Virus record (IMG/VR): IMGVR_UViG_3300035181_000091
Coordinates: 1-28,173 of that record
DNA from: a virus
DNA: 28,173 bases
Direction: 5' to 3' (one strand)
The notes beneath the pieces were generated by a model. That model was not told the DNA's origin. It did no database searches and saw nothing but the letters and a program-made list of their open reading frames with translations. Of this stretch, positions 6,380 through 27,395 are shown piece by piece (positions within the stretch are counted from its first letter, which is position 1; every line of letters begins with the position of its first letter). The position numbers were made by a program, and so were the translations under genes.

Positions 6380-8461
6380 ATGGACCTCGAGCTTCCTCCG
6401 ACTCGCGTGCTGGGCGATGTCCAGCACACCAGCGACCACGAGCTTCTACGTGAGGCGTTCCTGACGGTAGAAGACGCCGTCAACGCCTTGAACGGGCTGG
6501 TTGGCGAGCAGGGCCCGCAAGGGCCGCAGGGGATTCAGGGCCCGCAGGGGGTCATGGGGCAGCAGGGCCCTGCAGGGCCGCGCGGTCCAATCGGGCTTAA
6601 GGGCGACACTGGCGCTGCCTCCACTGTTCCTGGCCCGCAGGGCGAGCAGGGGCCTCGCGGCTTTGACGGGCCCAAGGGCGATACGGGAGCAGCGTCTACA
6701 GTTCCCGGGCCGAAGGGCGACACGGGAGACCGCGGTCCGCAGGGAGACACGGGGCCGCAGGGAGTCCCTGGAGCGGACGGAGCGCCCGGAGCGCAGGGCG
6801 CCAAGGGCGTCAACTGGATGGGCGCGTTCGACACGGGTGGCTTCACGCTCTATGCTGTAGACGATGCTGTGTCCTTCAACGGATCCAGCTACGTCTGCAT
6901 CGTTGCGAACACCAACACGAGCCCGACAGCGTCTCCTTCGCGGTGGTCGCTGTTCACGTCCATCGGCTCGTCAGGTCCGGCAGGGCCGACAGGCGCGACT
7001 GGAAGCGCTGGCCCGACAGGGCCCACAGGCGCAACAGGGCCAACCGGAGCGCAAGGCCCGAAGGGCGACACCGGAGACCCGGGACCCATAGGGCCGACTG
7101 GTGCAACGGGCGCTGACGGTGCTACCGGCTCGACCGGGCCGCAAGGGATCCAGGGAATCCAGGGCCCGACCGGAACTACCGGTGCGACTGGCCCCGCAGG
7201 TCCTACCGGGCCTACCGGGCCTACCGGACCGACTGGATCGACCGGACCCCAGGGCGATTCCGCATACGCGGTGGCTGTCGCTAGCGGGTTTGTTGGTTCA
7301 CAGTCTGATTGGCTTGCCAGCCTCGTGGGAGCTACCGGGTCCACGGGCGCGACCGGATCTACCGGGCCGGCAGGTCCTACCGGATCTACCGGGCCGGCAG
7401 GGTCGACTGGCCCGGCAGGATCCACGGGCCCGCAGGGAGACTCGGCGTACGCAGTCGCGGTGGCTGCCGGATTTGTTGGTTCAGAGTCTGCTTGGCTCGC
7501 TAGCCTTGTTGGCCCCACAGGCCCGACGGGACCGACAGGACCGGCAGGACCGACTGGATCGACCGGACCCGCGGGGGCGGACTCCACCGTCGCCGGCCCG
7601 ACCGGCCCGACCGGCCCGACCGGCCCGACCGGTCCCACCGGCGGCTCGACGTCGGTGTTCACCTACAAGGCGAAGACGTCGTCGACCTCGGGCGACCCCA
7701 CGGCCGGCTACCTGCTATGGAACAACGCCAGCCAGGTCGCGGCGACAGCGATCAACATCGACCTGATCTCCCAGGACAGCCTCGACATCACCGTCGGACT
7801 GGCGACTCTGCGATCGGGCGACCGGATCTACCTCCAGGACAAGTCCAACTCGGCGAACTACCAGGACTGGCTGATCTCGGCGTCCGCGAACAACACCACC
7901 TACTGGACGCTCACGGTCAGTCTCAATGCCTCCGGAGGAACCGGCACCACGGGCTTCTCCAACAACGGCAACCTCGCCGTCGGCATCATCCGCCAGGGCA
8001 CCCAGGGCCCGACGGGCTCGACTGGGCCGGCAGGCCCTGCAGGATCCACGGGCCCCCAGGGCGATTCCGCATACGCGGTGGCTGTCGCTAGCGGGTTTGT
8101 TGGGTCAGAAGCAGCGTGGCTCGCCAGCCTTGTTGGCCCCGCAGGTCCTACCGGAGCAACGGGCTCGACTGGGCCGGCAGGCCCGGCGGGAACGCTCACA
8201 CTGACTGAAGTTGAAGTGGACTTCGGGACAGCGCCGGTCTATGACGCGACATTCGTGATCACCGACGCCGGTGTTGACGGGACCAAGCATATCATCGCGT
8301 ACGAGTCCGGCAACACGGCAACAGGACGAGTGAGCGATGACGCGGCCTGGGACAGCCTCATTCTGACAGCTCGAGCAGGGACCGGAAACCTGACCGTCAT
8401 CGCACGAGCGCTACCCGGCCCGGTCGTGGGCAAGCGTAAGATCTACTACCAGGCTAGTTGA
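6380..8461 (+). CDS. Collagen-like tail fibre / minor tail protein
   Basis: A 693-residue fibre protein. Residues 1-36 are a non-collagen anchor. Long Gly-X-Y runs ([13 protein letters not shown] type) follow, broken by other modules. Around residues 145-195 is a small domain ([20 protein letters not shown]) resembling carbohydrate-binding modules of the CBM5/12 type. A motif of the form [15 protein letters not shown] followed by WLASLVG occurs three times. Residues about 425-540 are a beta domain ([18 protein letters not shown], then [17 protein letters not shown]). The C-terminal 90 residues are another beta domain ([24 protein letters not shown]), a type common at phage fibre ends. Collagen triple helices make trimeric stalks, so this is most likely a trimeric fibre with several host-binding domains. 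The ribosome binding site aggagggg is strong. Confidence 0.88.
7247..7296 (+). repeat. 50-bp direct repeat, copy 1 (inside fibre gene)
   Basis: Bases 7247-7296 are identical to 8054-8103. They encode the start of the [15 protein letters not shown] module. The copies are 807 bases apart, a multiple of three, so recombination between them would remove 269 residues and keep the frame. Confidence 0.85.
7595..7630 (+). repeat. Four perfect tandem copies of a 9-bp unit in the fibre gene
   Basis: The unit ggcccgacc is repeated four times without change and encodes Gly-Pro-Thr triplets at the end of a collagen run. A similar three-copy run of cctaccgg(g/a) lies at 7202-7228. Such runs can expand or contract in steps of three codons by slippage. 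Confidence 0.85.
8054..8103 (+). repeat. 50-bp direct repeat, copy 2 (inside fibre gene)
   Basis: Identical to 7247-7296 over all 50 bases. A third, diverged copy of the same protein module lies near 7434-7515. Confidence 0.85.
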
Positions 8462-20301: not shown

Positions 20302-20326
20302 GTGAAATGACGAAAGGACGATCGGC

Positions 20327-21367
20327 TTGTTCATCATTCTCGAGGGCGGCGATTACGTCGGCAAGACGACGATCGCAAACGCGCTCCAGGCCAAGCTTAC
20401 ACGACACCGCGACAGCAAGCACGGCGCCGGACCGTACTACCACGGCGGCCTGGTCATGGGCCACTACGGCCCTCCCGAGAAGAGCCCGCTCCTCGAGTAC
20501 ACGACCGAGATCGAGTGGTACCGCCCAGGTACCAAGATCGGGATGCTCTGGGACCGCTTCCACCTCGGCGGACCAATCTACGGACCGATCTACAGGCCCA
20601 AGACCAATCGTGAAGGCTTCGGCGAGATGGGCCGCGCGGGCTACCAATGGACCGAGCTGTTCCTGGCGTCACGCGGCGCAGTGACGTTCCTCGTGCGGCA
20701 GGACGAGTCCGTGATCCGCGAGCGCTTCGAGCAGCTCGGCGAAGACTCGTACACCGGCAAGCTCGAGGCGGTACTCAAGGTCAACGCCGCCTACGACGAG
20801 TTCTTCCGCGGCCCGAACCAGCCGATCACGTACGGCGGCAACATCGAAGGCCACTTCACGAACCCGCAGCGCCGCGACGAGTGGGTCGACGACATCACGG
20901 ACATGATGATCAGCGTCGCCGCGCACGAGGCCAACAAGGCCGCGCCGCTCGCTGACTTCCCGAGCTACGTCGGGCCGCGCGATCCGAAGGTGCTGCTTCT
21001 CGGAGAGAAGCGTCACCTCGGCGATGACTCGATCATGCGGTCAGCGTTCATGCCGCTGCACGGCAAGTCGGGTGAGTTCATGCTCGACAGCCTCCCGACG
21101 CACAGCACGCTGTGGAAGCAGATCGGCATCGCTAACGCGCTCGAGGAAGACGTGGCCCACCTCAACCACGTCCTCGGCTACCCGCAGATCGTAGCGCTTG
21201 GCAACACTGCCAGTGACGTGTGCGAGCGCGCCGACCTGGACCACGCAAAGGTCCCGCACCCGCAGTACGTCCGACGCTTCCATCACCACCGACAGAACGA
21301 GTACGGCGCCCTCATCCAGCGCGCGGCAACCCACCCACCGAAGGACTACACACCGTGGCCGACCTGA
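20327..21367 (+). CDS. Deoxynucleoside monophosphate kinase fused to a uracil-DNA glycosylase-like domain
   Basis: A 346-residue protein starting at TTG 20327 with agga 9 bases upstream. Residues 1-205 are a thymidylate-kinase-type P-loop kinase: Walker A GGDYVGKTT (7-15), DRF (76-78) and a basic lid region (RERFEQLGEDSYTGKLEAVL). It should transfer phosphate to a dNMP in the cytoplasm. Residues about 213-335 form a second domain: KVLLLGEKRHLG (221-232), then IVALGNTASDVCERA (288-302) and VPHPQYVRRFHHH (309-321). This order resembles uracil-DNA glycosylase family 4-like proteins (GE-x-PG, ALG-x-TA, HPS), with altered residues in the first motif. The gene overlaps the next by 13 bases. The kinase call is firm; the second domain is a motif-level match. 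Confidence 0.78.
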   Translation: MFIILEGGDYVGKTTIANALQAKLTRHRDSKHGAGPYYHGGLVMGHYGPPEKSPLLEYTTEIEWYRPGTKIGMLWDRFHLGGPIYGPIYRPKTNREGFGEMGRAGYQWTELFLASRGAVTFLVRQDESVIRERFEQLGEDSYTGKLEAVLKVNAAYDEFFRGPNQPITYGGNIEGHFTNPQRRDEWVDDITDMMISVAAHEANKAAPLADFPSYVGPRDPKVLLLGEKRHLGDDSIMRSAFMPLHGKSGEFMLDSLPTHSTLWKQIGIANALEEDVAHLNHVLGYPQIVALGNTASDVCERADLDHAKVPHPQYVRRFHHHRQNEYGALIQRAATHPPKDYTPWPT

Positions 21368-22389
21368 CACCATCCATCGTCATCCCTGACCTCAGGGACG
21401 GCTACGTAGACCTCGTCAACTGGGTCATCTCGGAGGGCACGCCCGTCTCCCCGCGAGGCCAGGCGACGCACGAGCTCCTCGGCGCTCGTGTCGTCCTCAC
21501 CAACCCGCTCGACGCTTTCCCGCTCGGCGTCGGTCGCAATCTCAACACGCTGATCGGCGTGGCAGAGGCGGCTCAGTCGTTCAGCGGCGTATCCGACGCT
21601 GAAATGCTGAACAGCGTCTCGAGCGGCGCGTTCCGCATGTTCATGAACGGCAACGTGCTCCGCGGAGCGTACGGCCCTCGAGTCGCTCCGCAGATGCCTG
21701 GTATCGCCGCGCGCCTCTTCGAGGACCCTGACTCGCGCCAGACGGTCGCACTGGTGTGGAAGCCAGACGACCTGTGGCGTGCCGACACAAAGGACCTGCC
21801 CTGCACGGTCTCGCTTCAGTTCGCAATCCGCGACGGCAAGCTTCACTGCTTCACAAGCATGCGGTCTAACGACGTGTGGCTCGGCGTGGCGTACGACTTC
21901 TTCATGTTCACGCGCATCCAGATCACGCTTGCCTGGGCGCTCGGCGTCGAGGTCGGGAACTACTACCACTCCGCGACTAGCCTCCACATCTACGACCGCA
22001 ACCTCGAAGCGGCAGCTGAGCTCGTCAAGGCGGGCCAGTCATTTGCTGATGTCCAGGTCCCGCTCGGGTTCACGAACGACAACGCTACCGCTCCGGCGCC
22101 AGAGTCTGCCGACGCTGTATCTCAGCGCGTCCTGCTCGCGCAGGACTGGGCAGCTATGGCCATCCTCGGGATGCGCGACGACCCGATGAACCCGCCGATT
22201 GGGAATCGAGCCTCCGAGTACGTTGACCTGCTCGAGCCGCACATCACCATCGGCGGCGTCTACTGCCCGATCTGCTCGTACGTCCGACCGACGAGCGAGT
22301 CCGTTGCCGCCATGAGCGAGCGTAGGGGCGGTCTGACGGGCGTTTGCTCGCGCTGTGCGGTAACTCCCGGGTCGGGCAATGTCAAGTGA
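21355..22389 (+). CDS. Thymidylate synthase-family enzyme, predicted dCMP hydroxymethylase
   Basis: A 344-residue protein starting at GTG 21355, overlapping the kinase gene by 13 bases. The thymidylate synthase core is clear: catalytic Cys150 in DLPCTVSLQF, phosphate-binding MRSNDVWLG (R170, S171, D173), and H211/Y213 in LHIYDRN. At the position of E. coli TS Asn177, which selects dUMP, the residue is Asp181 (GVAYDFFMF). That Asn-to-Asp change is known from dCMP hydroxymethylases such as T4 gp42. The histidine after the catalytic Cys in TS is Thr151. The enzyme would add a one-carbon unit from methylene-tetrahydrofolate to C5 of dCMP. The C-terminus adds a zinc-ribbon-like end (CPICSY and CSRCA). 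A dUMP-using synthase remains possible. Confidence 0.8.
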   Translation: MADLTPSIVIPDLRDGYVDLVNWVISEGTPVSPRGQATHELLGARVVLTNPLDAFPLGVGRNLNTLIGVAEAAQSFSGVSDAEMLNSVSSGAFRMFMNGNVLRGAYGPRVAPQMPGIAARLFEDPDSRQTVALVWKPDDLWRADTKDLPCTVSLQFAIRDGKLHCFTSMRSNDVWLGVAYDFFMFTRIQITLAWALGVEVGNYYHSATSLHIYDRNLEAAAELVKAGQSFADVQVPLGFTNDNATAPAPESADAVSQRVLLAQDWAAMAILGMRDDPMNPPIGNRASEYVDLLEPHITIGGVYCPICSYVRPTSESVAAMSERRGGLTGVCSRCAVTPGSGNVK

Positions 22390-22852
22390 TCTGAGGCCCT
22401 CCTGGGACGAGACGTGGATGGCCGTGGCGGGGCAGGTTGCGCTCCGCAGTCGGTGCTCCAAGGCCCAGGTCGGCTGCGTCGTCGTATCGGCGCTGAACCG
22501 CGTCGAAGCGACTGGGCACAACGGCCCGCCCGCGGGACTTCCTGTCGAGGGTCCATGCTCTGGCTGGTGCCCGCGGTACTCTGACGGAGCGACCGACGCA
22601 GGGTACGAGACCTGCTTCTCCGTGCACGCCGAGATGAACGCGCTCCTGTACGTCGACCGTTCGCGTATTGAGGGCGGCACACTGTACTGCACGGGGTCGC
22701 TGTGCATCGGCTGCGCCAAGGCGGTAGCCAACTCTGGCGTGGCGCACGTCGTCATGCGAGTCGAGGAAGACCGCGCGTACCGCAACCCGGACGCCGTGAT
22801 CAAGTTCCTGCTTGAGTGCGGCCTGACAGTGATGGCAGTGACCAATGAGTAA
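22379..22852 (+). CDS. dCMP deaminase
   Basis: A 157-residue zinc deaminase. Active site: HAE at residues 83-85 (H83 zinc ligand, E85 proton shuttle) and C109/C112 in GSLCIGCAKAV. Extra Cys at 60, 64 and 79 could form the structural zinc site seen in dCMP deaminases. The enzyme should convert dCMP (or a C5-modified dCMP) to the dUMP form, feeding thymidylate synthesis. The start ATG 22379 lies 11 bases inside the upstream gene, and its end overlaps the polymerase start by 8 bases, so it is part of one translated unit. The overall length fits the family. Confidence 0.85.
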   Translation: MSSDLRPSWDETWMAVAGQVALRSRCSKAQVGCVVVSALNRVEATGHNGPPAGLPVEGPCSGWCPRYSDGATDAGYETCFSVHAEMNALLYVDRSRIEGGTLYCTGSLCIGCAKAVANSGVAHVVMRVEEDRAYRNPDAVIKFLLECGLTVMAVTNE

Positions 22853-24626
22853 GCTCGCCGGCGTCGAGCTGCATCTAGTCAAGTCAGTCGAGGACGCCAT
22901 GGCGTTCAAGCGCTGGCTCGGCGAGCGGCACGAGAACGACACGATCGCAGTCGACACCGAGACGAGCGGGCTTGACCCGTACGAGTCCGGCGCCCGTGTC
23001 CGTCTCTGTCAGTTCGGCGACACGAAGACTGGGTGGGCCATCCCGTGGGAGGACTGGCGCGGCCTGGCGCTCGAGGCGCTGAAGGAGTATGAGGGCCACT
23101 GGGTCTTCCACAACATCGGGTTCGACGTGCGCTGGCTCGAGCAGCACTCCCCGTGGCGCATGCCGTGGCACCGGGGCTTCGACACCATGATCGAAGCGCA
23201 CCTCGCCGATCCGACCGACTCTGTCGCGCTCAAGAACCTGAGCGTGCGGCTGATCGACAAGAAGGCTAACTCGGGGGAGTTCCTGCTCAAGGAGTCGATG
23301 CACCGCAACGGGTGGACGTGGGACACGGTCCCGGTCGACTTCGATCAGTACTGGGCGTACGCCGCCCTGGACGTTGTCCTCACCGCGCAGCTCCACGATC
23401 ACTTCAAGACGATGGAGACGTACGCTCGAGCGTACGAGCTCGAGCTCGCCGTACGTCGCATCACCCTGCAGATGGAGCAGAACGGCTCCCGAGTCGACGT
23501 GGACTACTGCGAACGCAAGTACAAGGAGCTGAACGACTACGTCGAGACGGCGAAGGTCTGGGGCAAGGAGAACCTGGGCATCAGCATCGGCTCGTCTGTG
23601 CAGCTCATCAAGTACTTTGAGAGCCTCGGCGCCGAGATCACCGAGACCACCACGAGCGGCGGCAAGTCCGTCAACAAGGACCAGCTCAAGCTGTTCCGCG
23701 CCGAGGGAGGAAAGGCCGGCGAGATTGCTGACTGGATCCTGAAGGTGCGCAAGGCCGACAAGCTCGCGGGCACGTACTTCCTGAACTTCATCAACGGGAA
23801 CGTGGACGGACTCGTGCACCCGTCGATCCGAACGCTGGGCGCGCGCACGTCGCGCATGAGTATCACGAACCCCGCGCTACAGACACTGCCGAAGGGCGAA
23901 TCCACGGTCCGCCGGGCATTCATCCCGAGGACCGAGGACGAGTGCATCATCACGAGCGACCTCGACCAAGTCGAGTTCCGCATGTTCGCGAGCATGAGCA
24001 TGGACCAGGCCCTGCTCGACCTCTTCAGGAACGCCGACATCGGTGGGTCTGACGTGTTCACCGGGATCGGCCAGGAGCTGTACTCTGACCCGTCGATGAC
24101 TAAGGAAGACAAGCGCCGAGGGTCGATCAAGTCCATGATCTACGGCCGTCTCTACGGCGCCGGAGTCCCCAAGCAGGCCATGACCGCAGGCGTCCCCGTT
24201 GACGTGATGCAGGCCATGAGCGACCGGTTCGACTCCCTGTACCCCGGGATGGTCCAGTACCAGAAGGCCGTGGAAGACGCGGTGACTGGTCGGTTCGCCT
24301 CTGAAGGCCAGGGCTACGTGATGCTCCGCTCGGGACGCAAGCTCCCCGTTGACAAGACCCGCATGTACACGGGCGTCAACTACATGATCCAGGGCGGTGC
24401 GGCCGAGGTCTTCAAGCAGAACCTGGTGAATCTGGACATGGCCGGGTTCGGTGACATGATGATGGTGCCGGTGCACGACGAGATCGTGCTGTCCGTCCCG
24501 AAGGCTGACGCTGATGACGCCATGGAAGCTGTGCGCGAGTGTATGACCACTCGCACGGGCTGGGAGATTCCTCTTACCTCTGGCATCGACGGCCCACTTG
24601 CCAACTGGGGCGAGAAGTACGAATAG
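22845..24626 (+). CDS. DNA polymerase I-type (family A) with 3'-5' exonuclease
   Basis: A 593-residue replicative polymerase without a 5' nuclease domain, a form usual in phages. The exonuclease is intact: D37 and E39 (DTETSGLD), D94 (HNIGFD), Y172 and D176 (AYAALD). Polymerase motifs: A, SDLDQVEFR (D372, E377); B, KRRGSIKSMIYGRLYG (K429, Y433, Y437); C, VHDE (543-546). Tyr433 stands where E. coli Pol I has Phe762, as in T7 polymerase. It copies the phage genome and would have to accept any modified dNTP made by the upstream enzymes. It overlaps the deaminase gene by 8 bases and ends the cassette; a 116-base gap follows. Confidence 0.95.
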   Translation: MSKLAGVELHLVKSVEDAMAFKRWLGERHENDTIAVDTETSGLDPYESGARVRLCQFGDTKTGWAIPWEDWRGLALEALKEYEGHWVFHNIGFDVRWLEQHSPWRMPWHRGFDTMIEAHLADPTDSVALKNLSVRLIDKKANSGEFLLKESMHRNGWTWDTVPVDFDQYWAYAALDVVLTAQLHDHFKTMETYARAYELELAVRRITLQMEQNGSRVDVDYCERKYKELNDYVETAKVWGKENLGISIGSSVQLIKYFESLGAEITETTTSGGKSVNKDQLKLFRAEGGKAGEIADWILKVRKADKLAGTYFLNFINGNVDGLVHPSIRTLGARTSRMSITNPALQTLPKGESTVRRAFIPRTEDECIITSDLDQVEFRMFASMSMDQALLDLFRNADIGGSDVFTGIGQELYSDPSMTKEDKRRGSIKSMIYGRLYGAGVPKQAMTAGVPVDVMQAMSDRFDSLYPGMVQYQKAVEDAVTGRFASEGQGYVMLRSGRKLPVDKTRMYTGVNYMIQGGAAEVFKQNLVNLDMAGFGDMMMVPVHDEIVLSVPKADADDAMEAVRECMTTRTGWEIPLTSGIDGPLANWGEKYE

Positions 24627-26038: not shown

Positions 26039-26626
26039 ATGACCGTCGTCGTTGCCGCACGCACTAAGAACGACGGCATCGTCATGGCGTCCGACTCTGA
26101 GCTCACCGGCGGGTGGCAGCGGTCCCTCAACGCGGTACCCAAGATCTGGATCGTAGACGAGCGCGTGATGGGCTCCGCCGGCAGCGTTCGTGCTGCGCAG
26201 ATCGTGCGTCACATGGTGGAGTGGCCGGACCTCTGGGTTGACATGGAGGGCGGCTTCGGGCCGGACGACATCGAGCGCTTCATGGTCAAGTCCGTGTGGC
26301 CGGCAATCCGGTACGCCGCCGACTCGAACGGCATCCTAGAATCGCACCGCGGCAAGGAGCACCTAGACGCCGACTTCCTGATCGCGTACGGCGACACGCT
26401 GGTCGAAGTCTATGGCGACGGCTCCATCGTCATTCCACCGTCAGGGCGAGCCGCAATCGGAAGCGGGTACGCCGAAGCGCTAGGTCACCTTGGGGATGAT
26501 GGACCGTGGTCAAGGGCGCAAGTGGTGAAGGCCGCACGCAAGGCCCGGCTGACAGCAGTCGGAGTGGGCGGTCCGATCTACGTAGCGTCAACCCGGGACC
26601 TCATGGTGGAGCTGGAGCCGGAGTGA
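26039..26626 (+). CDS. Proteasome / HslV-like Ntn hydrolase
   Basis: A 195-residue protein with start ATG 26039, 3 bases after the previous stop. It begins MTVVVAARTKNDGIVMASDS, the plan of proteasome beta and HslV subunits. After Met removal, Thr1 would be the nucleophile, D18 (ASDSE) matches proteasome Asp17, and K34 (VPKIW) matches Lys33. Then GSAGSVRAAQIVRHM corresponds to the G-x-AG strand-turn and first long helix, and AAIGSGYAEALGHL to the later helix. All key catalytic residues are present and no propeptide is seen, as in HslV. No ATPase partner is visible here. It probably forms a ring peptidase that acts alone or with host unfoldases. Confidence 0.8.
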   Translation: MTVVVAARTKNDGIVMASDSELTGGWQRSLNAVPKIWIVDERVMGSAGSVRAAQIVRHMVEWPDLWVDMEGGFGPDDIERFMVKSVWPAIRYAADSNGILESHRGKEHLDADFLIAYGDTLVEVYGDGSIVIPPSGRAAIGSGYAEALGHLGDDGPWSRAQVVKAARKARLTAVGVGGPIYVASTRDLMVELEPE

Positions 26627-26762: not shown

Positions 26763-27395
26763 GTGGCAGCTGACCCGGACCTTTCGCTGAGCGAGATCGA
26801 CATCGAGCTCACGCAAGGCGACTTCGACCTGACGGATACCGCGTCGTCAGGCGGGGATGTCGTGCTCGAACTCGAGACAGACGATGTCGTCATCGACATC
26901 GAGTACCCCGAGGCAGAGTTCGTCCTGGAGCTCGAGACAGACGACTACCTTCTCGAGATGGAGATTGACGACTACGTCATCGACATCGAGACGGAAGGCC
27001 TCCAGGGCCCCGCAGGTCCCGCATCTACGATTCCTGGCCCCCAAGGGCCGCCTGGGCCAGGGCTGAGCCCTGCGACGTTCTCCCGGTTGGGCGAGCTGAC
27101 CACGACTACCGGCAACCAGCGTTTCTACGTCGAGTACGGCGGAGAGGTGCTTGGTCTACGCGTCGCAGTCGGAGTGCCACCGATCGGATCAAGCATTGTC
27201 GTCGCGCTTCGGCAGAACAACGTCGTCATTGCAACCGCGACTGTGCTGTCCGCGCAACTCACTTCTGGCTACGTGACCGTTTCGGCGGGTACTATCGTAG
27301 CGGGAGACTACTTCACTGTTGACATCCAGCAAGTGGGGTCCGCCAACCCGGGCTCTGACCTAACCGTAGCTGTCTGGATCAAGGCCGTAGAGTAG
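26763..27395 (+). CDS. Short virion fibre protein with acidic beta repeats and a collagen-like neck
   Basis: A 210-residue protein; GTG 26763 has aggag 6 bases upstream. Residues about 10-78 are very acidic with alternating hydrophobic residues, built from repeated units such as VLELETDDVVIDIE and VLELETDDYLLEME. Residues 80-101 are a short collagen-like run (GPAGPASTIPGPQGPPGPG). The last 105 residues are a beta domain (NQRFYVEYGGEVLGLRVAVG, SSIVVALRQNNVVI, VAGDYFTVDIQQVGS, GSDLTVAVWI) of a type found at fibre and appendage ends. It is probably a trimeric surface fibre whose acidic part attaches to the particle, though which structure it decorates is unknown. Confidence 0.7.
   Translation: MAADPDLSLSEIDIELTQGDFDLTDTASSGGDVVLELETDDVVIDIEYPEAEFVLELETDDYLLEMEIDDYVIDIETEGLQGPAGPASTIPGPQGPPGPGLSPATFSRLGELTTTTGNQRFYVEYGGEVLGLRVAVGVPPIGSSIVVALRQNNVVIATATVLSAQLTSGYVTVSAGTIVAGDYFTVDIQQVGSANPGSDLTVAVWIKAVE
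26871..26990 (+). repeat. Internal repeats encoding acidic beta units
   Basis: ctcgagacagacga occurs at 26871-26884 and 26931-26944, 60 bases apart. cgtcatcgacatcgag occurs at 26888-26903 and 26975-26990. Near-identical DNA suggests recent duplication of a roughly 20-residue unit. Confidence 0.7.

Follow-up and report, generated by a model that had tools for sequence, protein, structure and literature searches.

Why would a phage join a nucleotide kinase to a fold of the uracil-DNA glycosylase (UDG) superfamily in one protein? The question is raised by a gene of the window, which is an entire virus record of 28,173 bases and probably a fragment. A preliminary description had placed there a dNMP kinase fused to a UDG-like domain, and the reading frame is real, has exactly the coordinates then given, and carries the motifs quoted: GGDYVGKTT (residues 7–15), DRF (76–78), LLLGEKRHLG (223–232), ALGNTASDVCERA (290–302) and VPHPQYVRRFHH (309–320). 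It is a single open frame with a TTG start and a stop at 21367, and the alignment shows that its start point (M-x-I-x-x-E-G) is common to most homologues. Between the window and contig L006 the UDG-like domain differs mostly at third codon positions, with a dN/dS of about 0.49 (0.32 in the kinase part), indicating that it is translated and under purifying selection. An AlphaFold2 model of the whole protein, made with 35 homologues, has a mean pLDDT of 90 and a pTM of 0.90, and models, profiles and full-length homologues all bear out the division into two domains. The features of the locus are collected in Table 1.

Table 1. Features of the fusion gene and of the genes that follow it in the window
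Feature	Coordinates	Strand	Basis or remark
Putative ribosome-binding site, GAAAGGA	20312..20318	+	8 nt 5' of the TTG; inferred from position
Whole kinase + UDG-like fusion gene, 346 codons (346 aa)	20327..21367	+	Full-length homologues
Thymidylate-kinase-fold domain, residues 1–206 (about)	20327..20944	+	AlphaFold2 model, phrog_761, conservation
UDG-superfamily domain, residues 207–346 (about)	20945..21364	+	Profile and structure matches
Changed motif A, LLLGEKRHLG; G226-E227 align with UdgX G51-E52 (Tth UDGa E41)	20993..21022	+	Profile alignment
F241, at the position of the base-stacking Phe (Tth UDGa F54)	21047..21049	+	Invariant 35/35; role from PMC5387724
N270, at the position of the base-reading Asn (Tth UDGa N80, UdgX N91)	21134..21136	+	Invariant 35/35
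ALGNTASDVCERA, strand + helix, invariant LG..A	21194..21232	+	Alignment
Motif B, VPHPQYVRRFHH; includes the positions H311 (Tth UDGa H155) and R317 (UdgX R184)	21251..21286	+	P-H-P-Q-Y and R-F invariant 35/35
Thymidylate-synthase-family gene, predicted dCMP-hydroxymethylase type	21355..22389	+	PF00303, E 9.4e-20; Asp at EcThyA N177, Phe at W83
dCMP deaminase	22379..22852	+	PF00383, E 1.5e-17; phrog_174, E 8e-42
Family A DNA polymerase (3'-5' exonuclease included), with which the conserved block ends	22845..24626	+	PF00476, E 5e-50

The N-terminal half has the intact P-loop, the DR motif and the fold of the thymidylate kinase family, and the P-loop and a D-R-W-H-W-G-E-like motif (DRF/DRWHWGE) are conserved among homologues. 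Thymidylate kinases rank top in a Foldseek search with the fusion model, residues 1–207 align by VIA-align with Z 16.1 to Bacillus subtilis YorR (3kb2/2axp) and Z 13–14 to thymidylate kinases, and phrog_761 (thymidylate kinase) matches this half with E 1.2e-8. The idea that some members lack the P-loop was rejected for L046, where its absence is a start-codon artefact.

The C-terminal domain of the window matched no Pfam family when it was searched alone, and a profile of four sequences found only chance matches in the PDB. A profile of 35 sequences, however, found UdgX and family-4 UDG structures (E 7e-4), and Pfam UDG (PF03167) matches 20 of the 35 distinct member domains (best E 5.9e-6), the window's own domain not being among them. 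Modelled by itself the domain reaches a mean pLDDT of 90.2, and this model matches family-4 UDG and UdgX with a Foldseek E of 1.1e-5 and VIA-align Z scores of 12.2 for UdgX (rmsd 2.5 over 126 residues) and 11.7 for family-4 UDG. The structure prediction and fold search proposed at the outset as a check of the claim thus return a UDG-superfamily fold and do not refute it, and the assignment as family-4-like is right by Pfam on the members, by the PDB profile and by the isolated-domain model. We note that PDB entry 9qhs_A, the family A DNA polymerase of phage phiLo with a modified template, also has a UDG-like region (Z 9.4), which makes another link between the UDG fold and modified phage DNA.

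The uracil pocket of Tth UDGa is formed by E41, G42, E47, F54, N80 and H155, with N89 positioning a water; E47 blocks thymine, most of the catalytic rate comes from H155, and the E41D change substantially lowered activity (PMC5387724). R184 of UdgX touches the DNA backbone (PMC10359453). In the fusion family E227, F241 and N270 were placed on UdgX by profile alignment; H311 and R317 were assigned from motif B, where the six-residue spacing is identical, rather than by residue-level structural alignment. F241, N270, H311 and R317 are each invariant in all 35 domain sequences, an acid (D or E) is found at position 227 in 34 of them, being Asp in most members, and the pocket residues are invariant among sequences down to about 20% identity. 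The motif A of family-4 UDGs, GE[AG]PG, is on the other hand reduced to G[DE] (34/35) followed by variable residues, with the proline-glycine lost; the sequence alignments contain no conserved residue that matches E47 or N89 of Tth UDGa, and the UdgX KRRIH loop with its cross-linking His is absent from the window sequence. Family-4 UDGs hold an iron-sulphur cluster with four cysteines, and residues 207–346 of the window protein include a single Cys. With the remainder of motif A and the iron-sulphur cysteines lost, and nothing conserved in the alignments at the C5-excluding position, the domain forms a UDG-superfamily branch of its own.

It had been suggested that the changed first motif hints at binding or a different chemistry rather than standard uracil excision, and this holds in part. 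The loop after G[DE] is indeed changed, and the Asp at 227 in most members, taken with the effect of E41D in Tth UDGa, means that the domain may be non-catalytic; against this, the pocket has retained its acid, Phe, Asn, His and Arg, and the domain may yet be catalytic. An Asn that reads the base forms bonds to N3 and O4 of uracil; in Brig1, a glycosylase for glucosyl-hmC, a Glu (E147) takes its place (PMC11078745). All 35 domains have the Asn and not the Brig1-type Glu, which indicates a U-type base, a preference that we infer from one sequence position, N270. Since E47 is not conserved, a base substituted at C5 could fit the pocket.

The distribution of the domain was studied with a profile of the four named homologues, which found it encoded by 50 viral contigs, nearly always as a kinase fusion; a search of the viral contigs with the window protein as sole query gave no matches. 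A pattern-based scan covering bacteria and archaea, with one genome for each species, gave 63 pattern matches, none of them confirmed, which does not prove absence from cells. We found no earlier description of a phage kinase-UDG fusion in the open literature, although coverage was incomplete and a prior mention is possible. Phage DSL-LC01 has a full-length homologue (E 3e-35, 99% coverage); the fusion of phage AXL3 is gp29, annotated as a thymidylate kinase; and in Pseudoxanthomonas phage PW916 (L004:2319-3299) it is an unannotated open reading frame, whose neighbour is named deoxyuridylate hydroxymethyltransferase, yet has the dCMP-type Asp described below. The two halves also occur apart. 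In record G001 the UDG-like domain has a gene to itself, and the record also contains a distinct gene for a homologous kinase, a thymidylate synthase-like (TS-like) gene with Asp at position 177, and ThyX; in the 368-kb record G003 the domain is stand-alone and the Asp-type TS-like gene lies far away. Gordonia phage Forza has the kinase and the TS-like gene with no UDG-like domain, fused or elsewhere, and in the metagenomic phage ctIqW946 (L068:8557-9453) a related kinase without the domain adjoins a gene named pyrimidine hydroxymethylase; as both phages pair a kinase with a TS-like gene and lack the fused domain, it is not essential to the pathway.

Most of about 45 loci share the gene order fusion, TS-like gene, dCMP deaminase and PolA. 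These loci are related gene blocks, so that their counts are not independent events; in L050 and L054 the order is reversed. The TS-like protein has Asp in place of EcThyA Asn177 and has lost Trp83 in all 41 aligned sequences, the window's included, and the Asp is also present in the TS-like proteins of L059 and L061, records with a stand-alone UDG-like domain (43 sequences in total). The window enzyme keeps the catalytic Cys and Glu58. Asp at this position is described as the key determinant for dCMP (PMC6400193). Among the controls it is D in T4 gp42, a known dCMP hydroxymethylase, and N in SPO1 gp29 and M6 gp58, which are dUMP hydroxymethylases. The "thymidylate synthase" neighbour in the window is thus predicted to be of dCMP-hydroxymethylase type. 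A TS-family gene is present in 31 of the 31 records tested, and ThyX in five of these. AXL3 has ThyX too and does not depend on its TS-like gene for dTMP, an argument that among the 31 records applies only to the five with ThyX. A search of the records for MazG (PF03819) missed annotated phage NTP pyrophosphohydrolases.

Several other features of these genomes may be mentioned. The C-terminus of the window's TS-like protein is extended by a segment bearing a zinc-ribbon-like motif, CPIC...CSRC; the segment is absent from the DSL-LC01 and AXL3 homologues. An HslV/proteasome peptidase relative (26039-26626; phrog_1040, E 2.7e-14) comes directly after a phosphoesterase/exonuclease-like gene, and collagen-like Gly-x-y repeats are found in a long tail-region protein (6380-8461) and a small protein (26763-27395). 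Downstream of the DSL-LC01 fusion, near its modification block, are a glycosyltransferase and a UDP-galactopyranose mutase (L002:23904-26040), possible makers of a sugar-decorated base.

AXL3 DNA was cut by just two of 37 enzymes, TasI and Tru1I, both of which have A/T-only sites, and its authors suspected modification of G/C (PMC7504290). The resistance to enzymes with G/C in their sites is compatible with a modified cytosine. The link to a modified nucleotide made in the preliminary proposal is well supported by this resistance, by the dCMP-hydroxymethylase-type neighbour and by the roughly 45 conserved loci, evidence on which that proposal did not draw, and its suggestion of sanitation or selection of a modified or uracil nucleotide is plausible. 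The fusion is most likely part of a phage modified-cytosine pathway. As a whole, the reading that we prefer, with the kinase acting on 5hm-dCMP and the UDG-like domain recognising or removing U-type bases, has somewhat less than an even chance of being correct. The TS-like neighbour would probably make 5-hydroxymethyl-dCMP, which the kinase would probably phosphorylate en route to 5-hydroxymethyl-dCTP; less certainly, the UDG-like domain would recognise a U-type pyrimidine, uracil and maybe 5-hydroxymethyluracil, and would bind such a base, or break the glycosidic bond, either within DNA or in a nucleotide, with the outcome that deaminated bases are kept out of the modified genome. 5-Hydroxymethyluracil is the deamination product of hmC, and hydroxymethylcytosine pathways with a dCMP deaminase are expected to yield 5hm-dUMP. 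It is a possible target because the residue that excludes C5-substituted bases from family-4 pockets is not conserved, and the quality-control role is preferred because a U-type pocket with an opened C5 side coincides with the expected formation of 5hm-dUMP. The more specific proposal, that a virus-specific UDG branch together with a 5hm-dCMP kinase proofreads the modified-cytosine pool or genome by recognising 5-hydroxymethyluracil, is conceivable but doubtful.

The alternative that survives best gives the UDG-like domain no catalytic role: as a sensor or tether it would excise nothing, but through binding to DNA or to a pyrimidine nucleotide would regulate the 5hm-dCMP kinase or determine its location. 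The loss of the motif A proline-glycine, the lack of a conserved match to E47 or N89 in the alignments, and the Asp mostly found in place of Glu, would suit such a role; UdgX has been crystallised with dUMP (6ajp), so that a UDG fold can hold a mononucleotide, and the two domains model as a single confident unit (pTM 0.90). An invariant His at the catalytic position and an invariant DNA-contact Arg nevertheless exceed the needs of a loose binding module, and the domain is also found as a separate gene; we therefore regard this alternative as unlikely, if still a serious one. A reaction at the level of DNA, in which a modified pyrimidine, once flipped by the UDG-like domain, would receive a phosphate on its hydroxymethyl group from the kinase, much as 5hmdU DNA kinases act in thymine hypermodification, is improbable. 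A base-flipping fold and a P-loop kinase make an architecture suited to it, the UdgX residue at the R317 position touches the DNA backbone, and there are more candidate modification genes near the DSL-LC01 fusion, but Forza and ctIqW946 have related kinases that lack the domain, in G001 kinase and domain are separate genes, and the nearest kinase folds act on free nucleotides. The kinase profile also has no match at E 0.1 in the genome of M6, which is reported to have the pathway, itself weak evidence.

Slightly more improbable again is an active glycosylase directed against non-phage DNA, of host or competitor, which it would destroy or recycle while the modified phage DNA is spared. Brig1 and Brig3 are UDG-superfamily enzymes redirected, in the opposite direction, to tell modified from unmodified genomes, and the pocket residues are kept here; the Asn, not an acid, at the base-reading position disfavours cytosine, however, and the fusion to a nucleotide kinase is left unexplained. 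The fold, the database names and the pathway reading of the AXL3 authors would fit a dTMP kinase of the usual kind, engaged in thymidylate synthesis (as gp29 is annotated) and with a decayed C-terminal domain, but the neighbour enzyme has the dCMP-type Asp and not Asn, AXL3 encodes ThyX for dTMP, and a pocket so invariant at such low identity is the opposite of decay, which makes this very improbable indeed.

Phages that replace cytosine have a difficulty from which cells are free: the modified base deaminates to a product outside the design of ordinary repair enzymes, and the nucleotide pools contain look-alikes. A kinase and a base-reading fold in the same conserved block are a concrete candidate for quality control of modified DNA, and the fusion flags phages likely to have a modified cytosine. 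If 5-hydroxymethyluracil is indeed proofread, modified phage DNA would have a repair or quality-control step of its own. Annotations are also corrected, as the "thymidylate synthase" of AXL3 and DSL-LC01 and the "deoxyuridylate hydroxymethyltransferase" of PW916 look dCMP-type. What is novel here is the UDG-superfamily branch, its fusion to a kinase, the defined pathway setting and the dCMP-hydroxymethylase type of the neighbour.

Among known systems, the UdgX and family-4 enzymes (M. smegmatis UdgX, Tth UDGa and T. maritima TM0511) share with the fusion domain the fold, the pocket acid, Phe, Asn, His and Arg positions and an HPxYxxR-like motif B, but they have GE[AGQ]PG where the fusion family has G[DE] and a variable loop, and the window domain, besides having one Cys and no KRRIH loop, is shorter and kinase-fused. 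Brig1 and Brig3, phage-defence glycosylases for glucosyl-hmC and hmC, are like the fusion UDG-superfamily proteins tied to modified phage cytosines; they are host defence whereas the fusion is a phage gene, and Brig1 has Glu where the fusion family has Asn. The T4 cytosine-hydroxymethylation pathway (gp42) likewise brings together in one phage an Asp179-type dCMP hydroxymethylase signature, a dCMP deaminase and a nucleotide kinase, although sugar transfer, if any, was not identified in the window; we know of no UDG-like domain in the T4 pathway. The 5hmdU DNA kinases of M6 and ViI are P-loop kinases in a hydroxymethylpyrimidine pathway, as the fusion would be, but the M6 hydroxymethylase is dUMP-type (Asn), the kinase is not detectably related by profile at E 0.1, and their partner domain is helical rather than UDG-like. 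The thymidylate kinase family (SPbeta YorR and the phrog_761 phage enzymes) has the P-loop, DR motif and fold of the kinase half, from which the fusion differs in its C-terminal UDG-like extension and in its pairing with a dCMP-type enzyme.
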